Position numbers and translations under genes: made by a program. A stretch of 64,000 nt of DNA from a virus, in the IMG/VR virus record IMGVR_UViG_3300025110_000009, positions 1 to 64,000 of that record; one strand, written 5' to 3'. Shown here in pieces: positions 2,628 through 17,852 of this stretch. Each line of letters opens with the position of its first letter. The first letter of the stretch is position 1. The notes under the pieces were generated by a model. It did not search any database. It was given only the letters and a program-made list of their open reading frames with translations, and was not told the origin of the DNA.

Positions 2628-2777
2628 TCATTTCTCTCCTGTTTTGTTTTGGCTATAAGGATTGCGCTTGAGGGACTTAAACCATCCCTTAATTACACAA
2701 TCACACTCTTCTGGAACAAATTCCGCCAATCGAATCTGTTTCATAATTACTCCATTAATACATCTATTACACTTCAT
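2628..2777 (-). CDS. Small zinc-ribbon protein
   Basis: 49 residues beginning MKCNRCINGVIM and containing CNRC and CDC, a typical one-zinc ribbon. Upstream in-frame starts exist as far as 2831, but they lie inside the glycosylase-like gene; the ATG at 2777 overlaps that gene's end by 11 bases and places the CxxC at the very N-terminus, as in related mini-proteins. The tail is basic (KSLKRNPYSQNKTGEK). Function unknown. Confidence 0.65.
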   Translation of the reverse strand: MKCNRCINGVIMKQIRLAEFVPEECDCVIKGWFKSLKRNPYSQNKTGEK

Positions 2778-3246
2778 TATTCCACCACTCCGGTATCTCT
2801 GTCTTCCAATCTGCAATATGGTTCTTGCCATTTACATAATATGTTCTATATGCCTTCACTACATCATCATTCTGATAAGGTTCGGGCATTGCTTGAACAA
2901 AGGGTGTTAAACCTTTGTCAGGTAAATAGTCAATTAATTCATTTACTTCTGAAGCATACTGACTAAATACAATCTCGCACTTGTGAGTCTTACCATATCG
3001 TAAGGTATATTCTTCACATAGTGCCTTGAAATGTTCTACTAACCAAGCCATGTTTTGACTTGATTCTCTTGCCCATATAGTGCAAGGATGATACATAAAA
3101 GCACTACGATACGGGGCATCAAAACCTCGTAATCGTAGGCAAGTTGAAATCATTTGCATACTTTCTAATGGCATCTTAACTATGTGTTTATCTACCATCA
3201 TCTTTGCACTCATCTTTGGGTCTTTATCTAATATAAATATATTCAT
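2767..3246 (-). CDS. Pyrimidine-dimer DNA glycosylase-like protein
   Basis: 159 residues starting MNIFILDKDPKMSAKMM. The combination of 'LD-DP--SA--MVDKHIVKMPLES-QM-ST' with a later Trp/Tyr-rich segment (FMYHPCTIWARESSQNMAWL) resembles phage and bacterial proteins annotated as pyrimidine-dimer glycosylase (T4 endonuclease V-related, Pyr_excise). The role would be removal of UV-induced dimers, sensible for a surface-ocean virus. The frame stays open upstream through the tRNA, but the ATG at 3246 is the sensible start. The family call is from memory; catalytic identity is unproven. Confidence 0.6.
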   Translation of the reverse strand: MNIFILDKDPKMSAKMMVDKHIVKMPLESMQMISTCLRLRGFDAPYRSAFMYHPCTIWARESSQNMAWLVEHFKALCEEYTLRYGKTHKCEIVFSQYASEVNELIDYLPDKGLTPFVQAMPEPYQNDDVVKAYRTYYVNGKNHIADWKTEIPEWWNNEV

Positions 3247-3264
3247 AATAATCACTTTTAATTT

Positions 3265-4529: not shown

Positions 4530-5152
4530 TTTGTCACCTGTTAAAACTTTGCTCTCGTCATCTTTCTCCTATCTTTCCACCTTCGATAGAAACATAATAT
4601 CATCACAAATTCCCGTAAAGATAATACTATATGTCCACTTCTAGCATCTTTCTATTTTTATCGTTTTTCCACCCCCCTACCCCGAAAGGAGGAGGAGGAG
4701 GAGGAGTAGTAAGAGAGTATAATAATAATAATAATATAATAATATATAATATATTAACTTATTACTTATATCCCTACACATCATGTCCACTTCATTATTC
4801 TACCCCCACTAGAATAATAGAAACATGACATATTATGCCTACTTTTGGGAGACTGAGTTGTAGAAACTGGCTCCCTTATCATATCATATAGGATATGGCA
4901 TATAGATATGTATATACATAATGGATATATTATACATATAAGCCTCATTGTCCACTATTAATTTCCCCACTCTTTAACGGCAGTAACTTTTTACACCATA
5001 AATCTGAGTCCTTTCATATACTGGAATTATCAGATTAGGTTCTTTCTGCGTTAATAGAACGCTAATGCCGAAAGCAATCATACCCTTTCGTGAGAACATA
5101 TAAACGGTGCGGAACCCCTCGCGGCCCCCCTCCGTTAAGAAGCCAAACACTA

Positions 5153-5160
5153 CCATATGG
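5153..5160. repeat. CCATATGG palindrome, copy 0
   Basis: First copy of the palindrome, in context CTACCATATGGTT. It lies 3' of the minus-strand gene that ends at 5281, outside the dense run of the array. Confidence 0.7.
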
Positions 5161-5208
5161 TTTTATCTGGGCTTTGCTTCCAGCAAAAACCTGAAAGAAG
5201 TGGAGAGG

Positions 5209-5238
5209 GAAATAAGGCCTTTAAGCCCTATTCCCCCC
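5209..5238 (-). terminator. Hairpin downstream of the 5281-5790 gene
   Basis: GGGAAATA pairs with TATTCCC across a nested GGC/GCC stem. It stands about 45 bases past the stop of the minus-strand gene, where a 3'-end hairpin is expected. No strong T run follows on the minus strand, so it may be an RNA-stabilising hairpin rather than a terminator. Confidence 0.4.
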
Positions 5239-5280
5239 TCCGGTAGTTGCACCCCGAAACTTAGGTTAACGAAGGAAGAA

Positions 5281-5790
5281 TTACTCATCCTCCGTGGTTA
5301 TGTCGTCATAAGCCGCACAAGCAGCAAGACCGGATAGCGAACCATCCCACTCTCCATCCTTGAAGAGTTGTGTTGCAGCCTTACGAGCCTTTGAAGCAAG
5401 TTCGTTTGCATACTCGTCAGCATCGGAGTAAACAGGGGAACCCTTGCTCTTTCCGTGCTTTCGTAGAAGGGGCTGAGAATACTGCGAAGTAGAGTTAAAG
5501 AACTCTCTTGCTGCCTCTCGGATGTTATCAGTTGCTGAATCCACTACTGCGCGTGCTGCGGCAGGTAGAATGCCCTGATTGCCTCTCTTCCAAGGATAAC
5601 CCGCGTAGGGCTTTAGCATATCCTTAATGCTGTTGGTCAACGAATCACGCGTTGAAGCGTTATTGTCACCAGTCGTTATTAGCATCTGTGCTAGAGTAAC
5701 AACGTCTTCTGGAATGTCTCCAACTTCCGCGTTACCTTCAAGCATAGTGCTTACTTTTATCTTTACTGAATCCCACTCAATATCTTCCAT
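5281..5790 (-). CDS. Array-associated protein A
   Basis: 169 residues, mostly helical and alanine-rich, with acidic ends. It shares with the protein at 7602-8138 the block GD-N-STR (around residues 41-48), HGKSxG followed by Tyr (around 112-120), and a C-terminal A-AT---F--G-W-DGS (about 135-152), so the two are divergent paralogues facing outward from the same repeat region. Codon choice is richer in C/G-ending codons than the operons around it, like the major capsid gene, suggesting high expression. The ribosome site GGTGAT precedes the ATG and the shared promoter lies at 5838-5894. Function unknown; an abundant protein acting on the array or in the virion is an inference. Confidence 0.8.
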   Translation of the reverse strand: MEDIEWDSVKIKVSTMLEGNAEVGDIPEDVVTLAQMLITTGDNNASTRDSLTNSIKDMLKPYAGYPWKRGNQGILPAAARAVVDSATDNIREAAREFFNSTSQYSQPLLRKHGKSKGSPVYSDADEYANELASKARKAATQLFKDGEWDGSLSGLAACAAYDDITTEDE

Positions 5791-5837
5791 CTTTTATCAC
5801 CTATGTGTATTTTCTTTCGCGCCCAAGTTTCGGGGGC

Positions 5838-5894
5838 ATTCTTGGGACAGTCATCGGATATATAAGAGGTTCCGTGCAAAGCAGAACCATATGG
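5838..5894 (-). promoter_or_regulatory. Shared promoter block of array protein A
   Basis: Read on the minus strand: CCATATGG, then GCTTTGC, then ACCTCTTATATATCC, then AAGAATG about 14 bases further on. The same order occurs after palindromes at 7033, 7488 and 8186 on the plus strand. TTATATAT is a good archaeal TATA box, and AAGAATG would mark the start-site region. Confidence 0.7.
5887..5894. repeat. CCATATGG palindrome, copy 1
   Basis: Context AGAACCATATGGTAATG. It is upstream of the minus-strand promoter and also begins the first gene-free unit. Confidence 0.8.
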
Positions 5895-6108
5895 TAATGA
5901 TAGCGTTTTTCAGGGGTCTGAAAGGCCGAGAAGGAAAAACAAGCCGTTTTCTGCGAGGATGTTAAGGTTATTATCGCGTTTTGGAAAAACGAGAAATAAG
6001 AAAAATGGTCAGGGGTCACGGGTGACCGCTAATTCGATTCACAAGGGACGGGTTCCGAATCCTACACTTTAACAGATACGATTAACCCATCTAATTCTAA
6101 TTATACTA
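5895..6108. ncRNA. Array unit 1 (gene-free)
   Basis: A 214-base stretch between two palindromes with no plausible gene. It contains a perfect hairpin GGTCAC/GTGACC at about 6012-6025 and shorter pairings. I find neither of the two conserved boxes described for other units. It could be a structured RNA of the same class or a spacer. Confidence 0.35.
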
Positions 6109-6116
6109 CCATATGG
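6109..6116. repeat. CCATATGG palindrome, copy 2
   Basis: Context TACTACCATATGGTAATG; TTACCATATGGTAA-like extension makes a longer imperfect palindrome. Confidence 0.8.
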
Positions 6117-6405
6117 TAATGATGGAGCAGGAAGGTTCAAGGGGGTGAACATAGGGCTTGTCATAACAAGAACCTAAGTGTTCATAGGTTTATCTCCTTG
6201 TGCCTTGCTAGTGGAATACATACCCTATTTATCGGGAATGATATGGGTTATGCGTTTAGACGCTACTTTAAGCCTCAAACTCTACGCTCTGGTTTATTAA
6301 CTGGCGAGACATTTAGATTGTCACTTTGGTGACCTCTTGTTACTAAACCAGACCGTAGATTTTGCGTCTGTAAACTAGCGTCTAAACGCAAACCACTTTA
6401 TCAAA
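6117..6405 (+). ncRNA. Array unit 2: nested long-range helices with box A
   Basis: Two nested helices are visible. Bases 6251-6265 pair with 6376-6390 over 15 perfect base pairs. Inside, 6282-6296 pair with 6344-6358 (one mismatch in 15). At the centre is box A, ACATTTAGATT (6309-6319), immediately followed by a hairpin GTCAC/GTGAC (6320-6333), flanked by GAG/CTC. This is the arrangement 'outer helix, box A, apical hairpin' repeated in four other places with different stem sequences. Whether RNA or DNA is the active form cannot be told from one strand. Confidence 0.6.
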
Positions 6406-6413
6406 CCATATGG
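6406..6413. repeat. CCATATGG palindrome, copy 3
   Basis: Context ATCAAACCATATGGTATTAG, separating units 2 and 3. Confidence 0.8.
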
Positions 6414-6743
6414 TATTAGGTTACTTAGTCAACGGAGTGTATGCTGTTAATTGCAGCAAGTCGTAGTCCTAAGATTACGAGCCTGAGTGTGGTTGCTGCA
6501 AGTAACAGAATACACTTCGGAGCAAGATAACCATACCAGAGAAAATTGGGGTCTTGAAAGCCTACAAAAATAAGCCCCGTTTTACTGCGTAAAAAGATGA
6601 CTTCTATATGCTTTTTATTAGATTCGCACTATAAGGAGGAGCAACAAGTTGCTCAACAATTCATATGCCCGCTTAGGCTTGAGTTTGAACTCACATATGT
6701 ATTATTCTTATAGCACTAATATACTAAAAAGACCTTTCTACTA
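6414..6743 (+). ncRNA. Array unit 3: two folded elements with box B
   Basis: First half: GAGTGTAT (6435-6442), CTGTTA (6444-6449) and TTGCAGCAA (6451-6459) pair in order with TTGCTGCAA (6493-6501), TAACAG (6503-6508) and ATACACTT (6510-6517), capped by TCGTA/TACGA. Second half: CTATAAG (6629-6635) pairs with CTTATAG (6707-6713), enclosing a hairpin GAGCAAC/GTTGCTC and a CATATG/CATATG stem that holds box B, GCTTAGGCT (6671-6679), followed by hairpin GAGTT/AACTC (6681-6692). This looks like a three-way junction. No gene is present. Confidence 0.6.
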
Positions 6744-6751
6744 CCATATGG
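6744..6751. repeat. CCATATGG palindrome, copy 4
   Basis: Extended here to the 14-base perfect palindrome CTACCATATGGTAG. Confidence 0.8.
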
Positions 6752-7032
6752 TAGGGAGGTTGTGTATAACGTAGTCTCTGGATACAGTTCTACTCCCGCA
6801 TTATGCGCCCAAAGGCGCAATCTAAATGTAAAATGGGGGGAGGTAGAATCTGGATACAGAACAAGTTATAACTGTTTCAACCGTACGTTACCCCATGTCG
6901 GGTTATGTAGATGCGGGCGTTAAACTTGCAAACTGAGGAGTCCACTTCAGGCAACATTTAGATTAGGCCTTTGGCCCTTACACCTGAGTTTAACTCCCTC
7001 TCTTTGCAAGTTTAACTTGCATACTTACTAAA
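6752..7032. ncRNA. Array unit 4: two box A elements in opposite orientation
   Basis: Minus-oriented copy: TTCTAC (6788-6793) pairs with GTAGAA (6843-6848) and encloses hairpin 6805-6818 (GCGCC/GGCGC) next to AATCTAAATGT (6819-6829), the reverse complement of box A. Plus-oriented copy: 6919-6932 pairs with 7003-7016 over 14 perfect base pairs and encloses ACATTTAGATT (6954-6964) followed by hairpin GGCC/GGCC (6966-6976). Between them lies a segment starting GTTACCCCATGTC that has a counterpart in the unit after 9516. Confidence 0.6.
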
Positions 7033-7040
7033 CCATATGG
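7033..7040. repeat. CCATATGG palindrome, copy 5
   Basis: Context CTAAACCATATGGTGGGATA, directly upstream of a shared promoter block. Confidence 0.8.
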
Positions 7041-7095
7041 TGGGATACTTTGTGTAAATTACACCTCATATATTCACCCTTAATCATAAGAATGG
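7041..7095 (+). promoter_or_regulatory. Shared promoter block for a gene-free unit
   Basis: After the palindrome come TACTTTGT, then ACACCTCATATATTCA (7061-7076), then AAGAATGG (7088-7095). This matches the blocks at 7496-7550 and 8194-8246 that precede genes. Here no gene follows, so it predicts transcription of the structured stretch 7090-7487. Confidence 0.65.
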
Positions 7096-7487
7096 TGACC
7101 TTCGCGAGTCACCACGGATTGGCTGAACAACACCATCGTTAGGGTGTAAAGCAACCGTAATGGGCCTTAGCGGGCCACCGAGTCGTTCTTACAAAGGAAA
7201 GGCAGGACAACACCCTTAGCGGGGTATTACGGGGTAAGCGCGGGTTAGAACTGTATACTCAAAGATATGTAGAACTAACGCCCATGCGTCTTTATTGGTA
7301 ATCGAAAGAGAGTCCAATATCCACTTCATTTGCTCAGTCGGGTCTGAGAGTGCCTTAGGAAAGCACGAAACAAAACCCATTCAGACTCCTAGCGGAGAAT
7401 CGTAAGCCTCAGACATGGAATCACGGTAGTTTAGCCCATGTTTAAATCTGAGCAATTCTCCCGTCTGGTTTTTGACACAAAGTAAAA
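7090..7487 (+). ncRNA. Array unit 5: probable transcribed structured RNA
   Basis: No gene in about 400 bases although a promoter block stands upstream. It contains GGTGAC/GTCACC around TTCG (near 7093-7113) and three hairpins whose loops read CTTAGCG or CTAGCG: GGCC/GGCC near 7162, ACCC/GGGT near 7212, and CTCC/GGAG near 7386. The loops are conserved and the stems are not. The two neighbouring box families are absent. Confidence 0.45.
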
Positions 7488-7495
7488 CCATATGG
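7488..7495. repeat. CCATATGG palindrome, copy 6
   Basis: Flanked by an outer inverted repeat CAAAGTAA/TTACTTTG, so the whole site can form a hairpin or cruciform. Confidence 0.8.
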
Positions 7496-7550
7496 TGTGT
7501 TACTTTGTATTAAATACACCTCATATGTTCATACCGGATTATAACAATGG
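7496..7550 (+). promoter_or_regulatory. Promoter block of array protein B
   Basis: TTACTTTGT, then ACACCTCATATGTTCA (7516-7531), then AACAATGG (7543-7550). Same spacing as the copies at 7041 and 8194. CATATGTT is a weaker TATA-like box. The leader to the gene start at 7602 is about 50 bases. Confidence 0.65.
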
Positions 7551-7601
7551 AGAGGAATTTTAGGGGCGCAAACCTATCTATCCTTTTTGGAGATGAATAA
7601 C

Positions 7602-8138
7602 ATGAGCAATGAAATAGATGACAACAAGTGGGAAACAAAGAAAACTGACCTTGAAGAGTGGTTCGCAGTTAATCCAGACCAAAGCGATTTGGCTATGATT
7701 GTGCGTTCAATGTTCGCTCTCGGAGATGCTAACCCTAGCACCCGAAAGAGATATTGGAACTCTATCGTAGGTGTATTCACCGATGTGGCAAATTCGCCTA
7801 TTGGACAGGGCCGCAAGTCCCTTATGGATACTGCAACGAAGTCTTCCTTCGACCTTTACCTTAATGACACCCTTTTCGTGTCCCTACGCGACACCGTTTA
7901 CCCTTTGGTATACGCAACCGCTAGAACACACGGAAAGTCCGGTGGTGTGCTTTATCGCACCCTTGAGGATGGGGCTACGACCTATGCAACGGATGGCGTT
8001 AAGAAGGAGCGATTGTTCCTCAATGCGGCATTCAATGCACACGCAAACGGAGATATGTCAAAGAAATACCATTGGGATGGTTCTTACGAGAACGGTTATC
8101 CTGTGGTATCCTTCATCGGAGGCGATGAGGAGGAATAG
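7602..8138 (+). CDS. Array-associated protein B
   Basis: 178 residues from ATG 7602, which has a GGAG ribosome site nine bases upstream; in-frame TTG 7587 and ATG 7593 are alternatives. It shares GD-NPSTR, THGKSGG followed by Leu-Tyr, and a C-terminal ----WDGS with the divergent gene at 5281-5790. Predicted mostly helical, with an acidic end (GGDEEE). Codon use favours CTC, ACC, TCC and CGC more than neighbours, as in the capsid gene, implying high expression. It is isolated between palindromes 6 and 7 with its own promoter. Function unknown; it may bind the repeats or their transcripts. Confidence 0.8.
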   Translation: MSNEIDDNKWETKKTDLEEWFAVNPDQSDLAMIVRSMFALGDANPSTRKRYWNSIVGVFTDVANSPIGQGRKSLMDTATKSSFDLYLNDTLFVSLRDTVYPLVYATARTHGKSGGVLYRTLEDGATTYATDGVKKERLFLNAAFNAHANGDMSKKYHWDGSYENGYPVVSFIGGDEEE

Positions 8139-8185
8139 GTGGGTTTTGCGCCCCTCTCCACCTCTCCGGTTTAACGCAAAGCAAA

Positions 8186-8193
8186 CCATATGG
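8186..8193. repeat. CCATATGG palindrome, copy 7
   Basis: Flanked by an outer inverted repeat GCAAAGCA/TGCTTTGC. Compared with copy 6 (CAAAGTAA/TTACTTTG), both arms change together, so the pairing is preserved. Confidence 0.85.
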
Positions 8194-8246
8194 TAGTGTG
8201 CTTTGCTAACACTCACCTGATATATTCATCTCCCAACATAAGAATG
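8194..8246 (+). promoter_or_regulatory. Promoter block of the 8244-9468 operon
   Basis: GTGCTTTGC, then ACTCACCTGATATATTCA (8211-8228), then AAGAATG (8240-8246). GATATATT is TATA-like. Start of transcription near 8245 would coincide with the first ATG of the gene, implying a leaderless or nearly leaderless message. Confidence 0.7.
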
Positions 8247-8447
8247 ATTCAAATGATGAACGAGAATAATGAAACAATACCAATAACTGAGCCAAAATAC
8301 GTGCTAGAAGTTAAGCATATGAAATCGGGGTCTGCCCTTGTTCTATGTATTAGCAAACTACGGGTATCTGGTGATAACCTAAAGGAAGTAATGGCTGATA
8401 TGCAATCTGCACTATCAGACTACGTTGAAGCGATAGGTGATGAATGA
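8244..8447 (+). CDS. Hypothetical 67-residue protein
   Basis: Start candidates are ATG 8244, 8253 and 8256; I use 8244 because it coincides with the expected transcription start. The longer open frame back to 8190 would cross the promoter and is rejected. The protein has strands (KYVLEVKHMKSGSALVLCI) followed by a helix (NLKEVMADMQSALSDYVEAIG), an alpha/beta mini-fold. First gene of a small operon ending at 9468. No family recognised. Confidence 0.6.
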   Translation: MIQMMNENNETIPITEPKYVLEVKHMKSGSALVLCISKLRVSGDNLKEVMADMQSALSDYVEAIGDE

Positions 8448-9166
8448 TGACTATCTATGAGAGAAAGATGGAAATAGTCTTTGATACAGATATGTCAGAA
8501 GTCAACTTTCACCCTAATAAGGTGCAGAGTATGTTGTATGATAGAGGCATAGCACAGACTAGTAACTATAACTATGATAATCCTGAGGATGATGCTAGAT
8601 TATACGGCTTTCAATCAACGGACGATACAACCACTACTTATGCAGTAACTGATGAAAACGGTCAAGTCCTTATGGAGTTAGATTACAGTAGTCAAGCAAG
8701 ACTAGCACAGAAGGGATTGACAGACTATGGTATTAATACTGATGTAGCAGTAGTTCAGACTACAAAGACTATGGATAAGTGGATGCGCGTAAGAGGCCCA
8801 TATCTAGGTATTTACTTTGGGCCTACTAATGGCACACAGTCCTTTTATGGTAGAGCCATGCTGAAATATGACGATAACGTAACTTTGTTAACAAGACTTG
8901 ATAATTACGGTCATACCTACACTCTAACCTTTTGGATTACTTATGAAGTGGAGTCAATAACAGATAGAAAGGCAGTAGAAGATAGAGTTGTTCAAGTCCC
9001 ATTGGCAGAGATGCTAAGAATACGCAAGGCAGTAGAAAGTACCCTTACAGAATTAAGTGCTTGTGAAGTAACACATACTGTTGATTGCGAAACGAAGATA
9101 ATTAGTGAGGCTTCATATCAATGCTCCCCAGAAACAACTAAACTTGTAATGGGGGAAGAGGAATGA
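8444..9166 (+). CDS. Hypothetical 240-residue protein
   Basis: Begins MMTIYERKMEIVF; the preceding stop region doubles as the ribosome site GGTGATGA. A strand-rich middle (TTYAVTDENGQVLMELDYS, LLTRLDNYGHTYTLTFWITYEV) and a helical C-terminal third with several Cys are visible. No known motif. It is coupled to the gene before (ATGATG) and after (ATGA). Confidence 0.75.
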   Translation: MMTIYERKMEIVFDTDMSEVNFHPNKVQSMLYDRGIAQTSNYNYDNPEDDARLYGFQSTDDTTTTYAVTDENGQVLMELDYSSQARLAQKGLTDYGINTDVAVVQTTKTMDKWMRVRGPYLGIYFGPTNGTQSFYGRAMLKYDDNVTLLTRLDNYGHTYTLTFWITYEVESITDRKAVEDRVVQVPLAEMLRIRKAVESTLTELSACEVTHTVDCETKIISEASYQCSPETTKLVMGEEE

Positions 9167-9300
9167 AATATACTGCTTTCTGTGAATGTGGTTTTGAAAC
9201 CCCTCCTGTTGAGTATGATGAAGAAATTGATTGGGGCTTGTTACAGGCCCACCAAGAGTTTTGTAAAATATATGCTATTGGTAAAAAGGAGGAAGAGTAA
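9163..9300 (+). CDS. 45-residue small protein with Cys motif
   Basis: Begins MKYTAFCECGFETPP and ends KKEEE. CEC and a later His/Cys (HQEFC) resemble a C2HC zinc knuckle. Overlaps the previous stop (ATGA) and the next start (TAATG). Function unknown. Confidence 0.6.
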   Translation: MKYTAFCECGFETPPVEYDEEIDWGLLQAHQEFCKIYAIGKKEEE

Positions 9301-9386
9301 TGAGAGATACTCTTCCTCCTGATTGTAAAGAATGTGATTCCTCGTTCTATTGGTGCTGGTTTAATGGATGTAAAAATAATGATTGA
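9300..9386 (+). CDS. 28-residue cysteine-rich peptide
   Basis: MRDTLPPDCKECDSSFYW followed by CWFNGCKNND. CxxC and a second Cys pair suggest zinc or disulfide cross-linking. Preceded by GGAGGAAGAG, a strong ribosome site. Coupled on both sides. Confidence 0.5.
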   Translation: MRDTLPPDCKECDSSFYWCWFNGCKNND

Positions 9387-9468
9387 GATATGTAATAACT
9401 GCGGAATGGAATTAGGCGATTTAAGAGTAAAAATGGGTAATTGCTGTAAAATCGTAACAATGAAGTAA
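9379..9468 (+). CDS. 29-residue zinc-ribbon peptide
   Basis: Begins MIEICNNCGMELGDL and contains CNNC and a CC pair 15 residues later. It overlaps the preceding peptide by eight bases. A CCCG/CGGG hairpin follows at 9473-9484 and the next palindrome at 9508. Confidence 0.5.
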   Translation: MIEICNNCGMELGDLRVKMGNCCKIVTMK

Positions 9469-9472
9469 GTCC

Positions 9473-9484
9473 CGTTATCGGGCA
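9473..9484 (+). terminator. Hairpin after the 8244-9468 operon
   Basis: CCCG TTAT CGGG directly after the last stop. No long T run follows, so termination may depend on the palindrome region 30 bases on, or this is a 3'-end stabiliser. Confidence 0.4.
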
Positions 9485-9507
9485 TTCTGTTAGCAAAGCA
9501 CAGCCTA

Positions 9508-9515
9508 CCATATGG
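9508..9515. repeat. CCATATGG palindrome, copy 8
   Basis: Extended to CTACCATATGGTAG as in copy 4. Confidence 0.8.
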
Positions 9516-9791
9516 TAGTGAGGTTAAATGAACGAAGTGAGATAACCTGAAGGGAACCAAGTATGAACGCTTAAGCGTTAATCTAAATGTCAAATACAGG
9601 TTCCGTTCAGGAGATACTACGGAGTGAATGTTGGGATTAACCGAATGTTACCCGATGTCTGGTTATGTAGGGTTGTGCTTAAGGTGAGTAACCCGGTAGA
9701 ATTTCCAACACTACCGCTTAGGCTCGTTCTTAAGAACAGCCGTGTTTAACATTCTACATAGGTTACCACCTTAAACCAACCACTTACTAAA
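9516..9791. ncRNA. Array unit 6: one box A and one box B element
   Basis: Minus-oriented box A: GGAACC (9553-9558) pairs with GGTTCC (9599-9604), enclosing hairpin AACGC/GCGTT (9566-9579) and AATCTAAATGT (9580-9590). Plus-oriented box B: GTAGAAT (9696-9702) pairs with ATTCTAC (9751-9757), inside it AACAC (9707-9711) with GTGTT (9742-9746), then GCTTAGGCT (9716-9724) and hairpin GTTC/GAAC (9726-9737). Organisation parallels unit 4. No gene. Confidence 0.6.
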
Positions 9792-9799
9792 CCATATGG
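9792..9799. repeat. CCATATGG palindrome, copy 9
   Basis: Context TACTAAACCATATGGTTGTTAA, same left flank as copy 5. Confidence 0.8.
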
Positions 9800-10107
9800 T
9801 TGTTAATTAAAAAAGAAAAGGTCTGGTGAGTTGTGATGATGTTAACATAATCTTTTAGCGTACGATAACAGCCGAAGGTAGTTAGCGTACATAAGAGAGT
9901 CGTAAGACTCAGCCTAAGCGGTACTGTCTTGATAAAAGTTTATGATTAGCATCTGAACTGTTTGAGACAGACCATAAATCAAAAGAACCCGATATGGGAT
10001 TATCTTGCTAGGAGTAAGGCCTAAACAGTTACGCACCCACATTTAGATTTAGACTCTTAGGAGCCTAAAGTGCGACATTGTTTATGCCTTACTCCATGAC
10101 TAAGTAA
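9800..10107. ncRNA. Array unit 7: box B (minus) and box A (plus)
   Basis: Minus-oriented box B: hairpin GAGTC/GACTC (9897-9910) followed by AGCCTAAGC (9911-9919), with a weak GTAC/GTAC outer pairing. Plus-oriented box A: GGAGTAAGGC (10011-10020) pairs with GCCTTACTCC (10086-10095), then CGCAC with GTGCG, enclosing ACATTTAGATT (10039-10049) and an overlapping hairpin with TTTAG-CTC/GAG-CTAAA arms. No gene. Confidence 0.6.
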
Positions 10108-10115
10108 CCATATGG
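10108..10115. repeat. CCATATGG palindrome, copy 10
   Basis: Context AAGTAACCATATGGTAGTGTAATG. Confidence 0.8.
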
Positions 10116-10452
10116 TAGTGTAATGAAATGTATGTAAACGTAGAGGATTGGAGAGGCAGAGTATTGTGCAGGGATTGCTAAAGCAAGAGTCTAAACGTCC
10201 CGGAATTTACTCTGCTCTCCAATGCAACGGAGTGAATACATTTCATGTTAGTGTAACGGCATATATCCCCATTTATCGGGCAATGTCTTATATGGACATT
10301 TGGGTATTACAAGGAAGTAAACGACCAAGCACCCTGCCGCTGTGTTAACTACGAACTACCGCTTAGGCTCTATTTATGAATAGAGTTCTATTAACACCGC
10401 GCAAGTGCTGGCGTTTACTCCTTGTAATACCGTAATACGTCCTAATAGACAA
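10116..10452 (+). ncRNA. Array unit 8: two long hairpin elements, the second with box B
   Basis: First element: 10123-10133 pairs perfectly with 10236-10246 (11 bp); inside it 10147-10163 pairs with 10208-10223 (16 bp, one bulge). Second: 10304-10323 pairs with 10412-10430 (19 bp, one bulge); inside, GTGTTAA (10342-10348) pairs with TTAACAC (10391-10397), enclosing GCTTAGGCT (10361-10369) and hairpin CTATT/AATAG (10370-10383). A 66-codon frame at 10148-10348 crosses both helices and is rejected as a gene. Confidence 0.65.
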
Positions 10453-10460
10453 CCATATGG
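10453..10460. repeat. CCATATGG palindrome, copy 11 (last)
   Basis: Context AGACAACCATATGGAACGATG. The array ends after one more folded element; a partial site (CCATATGC) lies near 10599. Confidence 0.8.
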
Positions 10461-17202: not shown

Positions 17203-17852
17203 AGCGAAGAAGATGTAAATTATGTAATCACGAAGAACGTGATGACTTAGAAGCACAATTAGAAACAATGGCAATTACTGCCGATGACTTAGATAACAGA
17301 ATGGATTGGCCTAGCGGCACAACTGCAAGGCATCATAGAAACCATATGGGGGATTATGTAGATGCTTCTAATCCTCGGTGTAGTTTCTGCATACATGAGT
17401 TAAGAGGTGAATTAGAACAGCAACTACATAGTGGTGCTGTTACACCCAAAGGCGTGTCTATGCTTTTGAAATGTTCAGAAGAACAGGTAAAGAGGCACAT
17501 GAGGAAACATCTTCAGCCATTGGTTCAGAAGGCGGCGGCAAGTATTATAGCCGTGAAAGAGGTAGACGAGATAGACAGTCTATCGAAGAACATAACCCGT
17601 TTGGAGCAAAAGATTGATGTTCTCTTTGAAGAGGACGAATTGCATCCAAAATATATTGATAGTTTGACCAAGTTGGCAAAAGAAATTAGGGAAAGTCTGA
17701 GATACTTAATGGAATTTAAAGGCAAGTTAGTTCACAAGAGACAGGATACAATCATAGTAGCGCAAATGCAGATTGTTCAAGAAGTATTAGCACAGAATCA
17801 TCCACAAGTTTGGTTAGATGTAAAACAAAAGATGGAGGAGAAAATGCAATGA
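17196..17852 (+). CDS. Candidate small terminase subunit with two zinc/HTH modules
   Basis: 218 residues from ATG 17196. Two tandem modules begin CKLCNHEERDDLEAQL and CSFCIHELRGELEQQL; each is followed by a helix-turn-helix-like stretch ending in His pairs (ARHHRNH; VKRHMRKH). This Cys2-HTH-His2 pattern is common in phage small terminase and packaging-site proteins. The remainder is a long helical region (DSLSKNITRLEQKIDVLFEE) suited to oligomerisation. It lies 11 kb before the large subunit, so the assignment rests on the fold pattern. No tag. Confidence 0.55.
   Translation: MVKRRRCKLCNHEERDDLEAQLETMAITADDLDNRMDWPSGTTARHHRNHMGDYVDASNPRCSFCIHELRGELEQQLHSGAVTPKGVSMLLKCSEEQVKRHMRKHLQPLVQKAAASIIAVKEVDEIDSLSKNITRLEQKIDVLFEEDELHPKYIDSLTKLAKEIRESLRYLMEFKGKLVHKRQDTIIVAQMQIVQEVLAQNHPQVWLDVKQKMEEKMQ

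Follow-up and report, generated by a model that had tools for sequence, protein, structure and literature searches.

A likely mobile cassette with a manA-like RNA gene in a putative archaeal tailed virus

The unit at positions 7032-7496 of the window (the whole 64-kb stretch of DNA analyzed here, part of an 80,534-base virus record) is likely to be a mobile cassette with an RNA gene whose product acts in trans, a reading to which we give a probability of about 0.77. In this reading, an archaeal TATA promoter (7066-7075) would drive a transcript of ~380 nt from 7091-7095, the first 235 nt of which would form a divergent manA-type RNA with 11 consensus helices and an outer helix between 7116-7119 and 7319-7322. 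A second stem domain would follow, and the transcript would end at the T-run at 7469-7473, ahead of the next palindrome. The product would be a stable viral non-coding RNA and no switch for the downstream gene. Each cassette of this type would be bounded by CCATATGG palindromes and GGT-stem-CTTTG-stem-ACC hairpins at both ends, and the RNA gene would therefore be movable and invertible as a unit. The features of the unit and its surroundings are listed in Table 1.

Table 1. Features of the RNA cassette and the array around it, in window coordinates
Feature	Position	Strand	Remarks
Cassette array	5152..10460	none	CCATATGG sites 5153 to 10453
Left palindrome ACCATATGGT (core CCATATGG)	7032..7041	none	11 in window
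Cassette-end hairpin GGT-stem-CTTTG (7048-7052)-stem'-ACC	7039..7065	+	common end form
TATA-like promoter element TCATATATTC	7066..7075	+	A/T block directly after ACC
Predicted transcription start	7091..7095	+	offset 26-28 past ACC; P1 from 7093
manA-like RNA domain, RF01745 positions 1-192	7093..7327	+	own model R1: 7093-7331
P1 hairpin TGGTGAC/GTCACCA	7093..7114	+	helix 1; compensatory pairs in relatives
Outer helix GGAT (7116-7119) / ATCC (7319-7322)	7116..7322	+	close to the Rfam model's pseudoknot
CTTAGCG loop, manA arm	7166..7172	+	helix 6
CTTAGCG loop, second manA arm	7215..7221	+	helix 8; 5/5 pairs with double changes
3' domain: small pseudoknot (by eye) and long closing stem	7328..7473	+	without counterpart in L036
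T-run TTTTT, likely 3' end or terminator	7469..7473	+	T-runs in other cassettes
Inverted end CAAAG (7478-7482) and right palindrome ACCATATGGT (7487-7496)	7478..7496	none	
Adjoining gene cassette, ~170-aa family paralog with its own TATA-like element	7593..8138	+	

Structure of the RNA and its likeness to manA

The evidence for a structured RNA is comparative, not energetic. Covariation was counted on a plain MAFFT alignment of eight sequences with the structure from RNAalifold, and the resulting consensus contains 57 pairs, 42 of which show double changes. In this alignment, 91.9% of cells are paired, compared with 68.9 ± 1.5% for shuffled and 41-50% for slid versions, and 99 cells carry double changes, compared with 34.5 ± 4.4 after shuffling. 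A model-fitted alignment of 11 sequences, which leans towards structure, gives 94.0% paired cells and 176 double-change cells.

Individual helices follow the same pattern. The RNA unit is also present in loci L002, L004, and L005, and in the latter two the P1 stem is replaced by other complementary sequences. The outer helix (helix 2) changes from GGAU/AUCC to GUAG/CUAC and GGAG/CUCC in relatives, with 90.6% of its cells paired in the plain alignment and 100% in the model-fitted one. U-G pairs are frequent, occurring in 8/11 and 5/11 rows at two column pairs of the model-fitted alignment. Because these recurring pairs would be C-A on the other strand, we regard the plus strand as the RNA strand. 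Folding energy on the plus strand is ordinary (z -0.52 and -1.4; minus strand, -1.3 and -2.1) and was rejected as evidence for an RNA. The conserved structure is shown by these comparisons; that it is the structure of an RNA is nearly certain, as far as can be judged from sequence alone.

Support for the 3' domain is confined to a subset of three sequences, in which 84.0% of the cells of the long stem are paired (69.9 ± 3.5% when shuffled) and 16 show double changes (7.5 ± 2.0 when shuffled); a separate eight-sequence alignment of this region gives no fold. Since L036 does without it, the 3' domain is dispensable for the core.

Searched in E-value mode, Rfam returns the manA family (RF01745) at 7093-7327 on the plus strand, with 42.6 bits, an E-value of 1.1e-9, and a match over positions 1-192 of 192. 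Full-length matches are found in nine other loci (L026, L010, L004, L025, L005, L035, L038, L015, and L036). The gathering cut-off of the family is 55.2 bits, above the score of the window and above the best relative (L035, 54.3 bits), and none of the 21 records exceeds it. All scores being under this cut-off, we call the RNA manA-like and do not count it as a formal member. At the gathering threshold, Rfam finds only a tRNA in the window. In E-value mode, miRNA and lncRNA families also gave weak hits, which were taken as chance.

The likeness was also seen in the reverse direction. Model R1, built only from these viruses and on the RNAalifold structure, was run on stretches of four manA-bearing cyanophages, and it detects the RNA in P-SSM2 (E 3.5e-10) and S-SSM7 (E 1.7e-7) at positions that coincide with the RF01745 hits; it missed manA in the other two, P-RSM4 and S-SSM5. 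No match was returned by blastn of the RNA against phage records. The helix order over the full model (1-192), the conserved CUGAAUAA region, and the outer helix are common to both, and searches succeed, in part, in both directions. In contrast to manA proper, the viral RNAs score 32-54 bits, below 55.2; one arm has a UUAGCG loop where the RF01745 model has uaACCA; most carry the extra 3' domain; and the RNA has a cassette to itself, together with a promoter and, in some cases, an end that resembles a terminator. The carriers also differ, being archaeal tailed viruses here and marine bacteria or cyanophages for RF01745. The likeness to manA is shown, and we consider kinship with manA very likely.

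A first-pass annotation of the window had described three hairpins that share the loop CTTAGCG or CTAGCG on different stems. All three loops are present, at 7166 and 7215 (CTTAGCG) and at 7389 (CTAGCG). The former two belong to conserved helices of the manA arms, with compensatory changes in their stems, whereas L004 and L005 do not preserve the third as a loop; the three therefore do not form one set.

Boundaries, spread, and reordering of the cassettes

That annotation had further claimed that the block at 7041-7095 matches two blocks driving genes, that a gene-free stretch follows it, and that a dedicated non-coding RNA starts near 7090. The match to 7496-7550 held, with 42 of 55 bases identical against 29/55 for the best unrelated ungapped match in the window, and that to 8194-8246 is real though weaker (26 of 35 bases once shifted by one base; blastn 33 nt, 79%, E 0.086). 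The absence of genes held as well. The longest ORF of the cassette encodes 54 aa on the minus strand (7216-7380), and its only other copy is in L002, which is 98% identical; the longest ORF of the L004 cassette (48 aa) lies elsewhere, on the plus strand, and the unit contains no conserved ORF.

The proposed start near 7090 is supported by the spacing of start codons behind similar cassette ends. After the ACC of the hairpin, 69 of 151 unique CTTTG-type ends are A/T-rich; these promoter-like ends were picked by A/T content, so their A/T-richness is no evidence in itself. Within them, ATG peaks at offsets 26 (12/69) and 28 (10/69), with 0-5 at each of the other offsets from 15 to 44; some of the counted ATGs come from manA cassettes themselves. 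An offset of 26-28 fits the spacing of leaderless archaeal genes. From this spacing, we place the start at 7091-7095, where P1 begins. Transcription, its start, and the ends of the transcript are inferred from the sequence, without expression data.

Covariance models find the RNA at E < 0.01 in 14 of 21 virus records (G000-G005, G007, G009, G014, and G016-G020). Among these, G001 rests on R1 alone, a model that includes G001, and on its being 98% identical to the window; G004 resembles G003, and both are counted; and the R1 scores of G016 and G020 are low (19.6 and 35.8 bits). G011 is credited with the RNA only because its cassette resembles those of G016 and G005. The covariance-model searches gave no hit in G006, G010, G012, G013, and G015, and a match of G008 to RF01745 (E 0.08) was rejected, as there is no palindrome in the surrounding 2.5 kb, leaving 6 or 7 of the 21 records without an acceptable hit. 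A search of whole records missed G000, G001, and G002, which are known to have the RNA; hence its misses are not absences. As a separate observation, a related cassette in L019 (record G012, 2806-3026) keeps the promoter and the 3' end without the manA part, as if this had been deleted.

The geometry of the cassettes is consistent. The RNA begins 51-66 bp past the CCATATGG palindrome in 13/13 cassettes, which corresponds to archaeal TATA-to-start spacing, and 12 of the 13 measured cassettes have no ORF longer than 76 aa; both the fixed spacing and this isolation from ORFs are shown. Lengths range from 311 to 619 bp, except for the 1027-bp cassette of L037 (record G020), where the RNA is followed by a 120-aa ORF matching PHROGs of unknown function. 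The possible 5' UTR position expected of a cis-regulatory RNA is therefore lacking in 12 of the 13 cassettes, L037 being the exception. The smallest cassette, of 311 bp in L036, holds little besides promoter, RNA, hairpin, T6, and palindrome, and a T-run of 5-6 lies 18-19 bp ahead of the right palindrome in 5 of the 13. The claim of a dedicated non-coding RNA is thus supported by covariation in 8 to 11 relatives, the full-length manA match, and the ORF counts, although it remains an inference without transcript data, and we regard the stand-alone nature of the RNA as likely. Beyond that claim, the RNA has distant relatives in a known family, manA arms account for two of the three look-alike loops, and the promoter block belongs to a palindrome-bounded, movable unit (7032-7496).

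The palindromes are themselves exceptional in number and placement. ACCATATGGT (core CCATATGG) occurs 11 times in the window, where 0.06 copies are expected, and all copies lie within 5152-10107. The core is present in all 21 related records at 5-24 sites per record, nearly all of them in a single cluster wherever positions were listed, with single outliers such as that at 17342 in the record of the window. The form GGT-stem-CTTTG-stem-ACC accounts for 117 of 308 unique cassette ends. The two stem halves of the same end pair over 3.25 bp on average, compared with 2.32 ± 0.08 bp for mismatched halves and a maximum of 2.64 bp among 500 shuffles.

Among 238 cassettes from 19 loci, 48 groups recur, and their arrangement differs between relatives. 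One cassette is both moved and inverted in L038 relative to L018 and L024; the manA cassette, and not the 693-bp gene cassette, is inverted between L015 and L010; L026 and L035 are several moves and inversions apart; and one cassette sits at another place in L004 than in the window. Reordering and inversion of palindrome-bounded cassettes between related viruses is therefore shown, whereas the mechanism by which cassettes move is only inferred, from sequence order.

Other occupants of the array include paralogous proteins of ~170 aa, encoded in the window at 5281-5790 (-) and 7593-8138 (+). Their family comprises 43 members in a scan of 21 loci, overlapping ones included, with no match in Pfam, PHROG, phage proteins, or PDB folds; the predicted fold is all-helical (pTM 0.46), and comparison with the PDB returned nothing at E <= 0.001. 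Six promoterless cassettes (6108-7032 and 9507-10453) have folding energies well below those of shuffled sequence on both strands (z -4.0 to -10.5), compared with z of -1.3 to +0.6 for six coding controls. Double changes occur in 21/77 pairs of the hairpin cassette at 9791-10116 (four sequences), and the hairpin units at 6108, 6405, 6743, 9507, 9791, and 10107 have short motifs such as CATTTAGATT, CCGCTTAGGC, or their complements in common, as judged by eye. These promoterless cassettes could perhaps be DNA hairpins.

Role of the RNA and rival explanations

The manA RNA was classed as cis-regulatory and as a riboswitch candidate in 2010 (Weinberg 2010, PMC2864571, which also covers wcaG), and the family was updated in Rfam 14 (PMC7779021; see also PMC7657543). 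In S-CREM1, hits to wcaG and abiF flank a manA hit (PMC9964418). To our knowledge, neither a ligand nor a function has been established for manA RNA since its description. The sections of PMC7029224 bearing on the matter contain nothing on manA RNA, and in the open-access literature searched, with partial coverage, we found no report of this manA-like RNA or this cassette array in archaeal viruses.

What lies downstream of the RNA differs among the archaeal viruses. By eye, the cassette table gives a gene cassette in the window, L002, L004, and L024; a unit without a gene of the array family in L005, L010, L015, L025, L026, L035, L036, and L038; and a convergent gene in L037. Because the downstream neighbor varies in this way, regulation of one fixed neighbor is unlikely; a cis role remains possible within L037, where the RNA precedes the 120-aa ORF in one cassette. 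For comparison, we inspected 12 cyanophage records, comprising 4 with a hit among 10 selected and 8 picked from two blastn lists (12 and 37 records). In 9 of these, a same-strand CDS comes next within about 130 nt. The RNA of S-SSM7 (151363-151564; L058 1364-1565) is followed immediately by the start of a tRNA-Gly gene, the next gene in P-TIM68 is on the opposite strand, and an annotated ORF overlaps the RNA in S-SSM5. Overlapping ORFs are also present in S-SSM7 and P-HM1, and P-HM1 is one of the 9 records above. Taken alone, the cyanophage contexts would leave room for a cis role.

A cis-regulatory leader, riboswitch or similar, would control the next gene by read-through across the palindrome. 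The filing of manA in Rfam, the nine cyanophage copies just described, and the ORF behind the RNA of L037 all favor it. Against it, the following gene in the window carries a TATA-like element of its own; a gene, a non-coding unit, or a convergent gene (L037) lies downstream depending on the virus; L036 has a hairpin and T6 right after the RNA; and the S-SSM7 and P-TIM68 contexts do not suit a leader. We consider this explanation unlikely.

The structure could instead work as DNA, as a signal for recombination, packaging, or replication that need not be transcribed. The arrays do hold the strongly folding promoterless hairpin cassettes, and CTTTG-type cassettes have palindromic ends with paired stems in common. 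The manA unit, however, differs from the hairpin cassettes in its TATA-like element and its ordinary folding energy, its recurring U-G pairs work on one strand only, as RNA, and homologs exist in cyanophages, one of them abutting a tRNA gene; this makes a DNA signal very unlikely. A small protein gene, such as one read leaderless from the ATG at 7092 or the minus-strand ORF of 54 aa, can be all but excluded. The ATG does stand at the leaderless offset, with a 16-codon frame behind it, but L010, L015, L025, and L037 have no ATG at the equivalent place, the frames are short and differ in length (16 codons in the window, 41 in L036), the 54-aa ORF is common only to L002, and substitutions preserve the stems.

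Of the cis and trans readings, we infer that trans action is the better one. The RNA stands by itself in a movable cassette and has its own promoter, which speaks against a mere switch for the adjoining gene. That such an isolated copy occurs in viruses of a different domain of life is an argument that manA RNA can act as an independent molecule. The isolated copy also turns the old question about manA into simple tests. A bolder and more tentative possibility is that the CCATATGG/hairpin modules are recombination sites of an undescribed, unit-inverting cassette system of archaeal tailed viruses, with a stand-alone, trans-acting manA-type RNA gene as cargo. If this were true, manA RNAs as a whole would be trans-acting RNAs of viruses rather than riboswitches. 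The array would be a second subject in its own right, in that genes, an RNA gene, and DNA hairpins are reordered and inverted between close relatives.

Comparable arrays and the virus

The array resembles the PeSL of T4-type phages, in which a promoter and stem-loop motif recurs between units of a variable region and is linked to gene shuffling (Arbiol 2010; Comeau 2014; PMC4503421). Promoter and stem-loop are repeated between units here as well, and units are shuffled at the motif between relatives (L018/L024/L038, L010/L015, L026/L035, and window/L004). Unlike in PeSL, the separator here is a fixed palindrome flanked on either side by inverted hairpins, and the units also invert and include a non-coding RNA and hairpin-only elements. 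The haloarchaeal virus HGTV-1, likewise an archaeal tailed virus, has a TATA and inverted-repeat motif (PMC3950731), but it has 4 scattered CCATATGG sites and no cluster; no manA hit was found in it by a search that can miss. Integron gene-cassette arrays also consist of short units between recognizable sites, reordered between relatives. The resemblance is only in the manner of working: the sites here are symmetric palindromes and the units also invert, and a non-exhaustive inspection identified no integrase or attC-like site.

The host is likely an archaeon of undetermined group, again inferred from sequence alone. Phage-collection matches of the major capsid protein are all to archaeal tailed viruses (9/9 records; 8 Haloarcula viruses and 1 Methanofastidiosa virus). 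The terminase matches 86 records, mostly bacterial phages at <30% identity, with 4 of Natrialba. Genes downstream encode an ERCC4-family nuclease, a Cas4-like nuclease, and a B-family polymerase; haloarchaeal virus polymerases rank at the top for the last of these, yet 1,524 records match in all. Scanning genome contigs with protein A10 confirmed no relative. A scan of such contigs for palindrome pairs gave 6 stretches, and model R1 found the RNA in 0/6; that from an archaeal MAG (L059) was rejected as a host clue, as it sits in repetitive coding DNA. Elsewhere in the window, 2767-3255 (-) encodes a pyrimidine dimer DNA glycosylase (Pyr_excise, E 5.1e-11), and many structural-region proteins between 11029 and 36640 carry a short, similar motif at their N terminus, approximately M-(S/N)-W-x-x-(I/L)-(L/I)-K.
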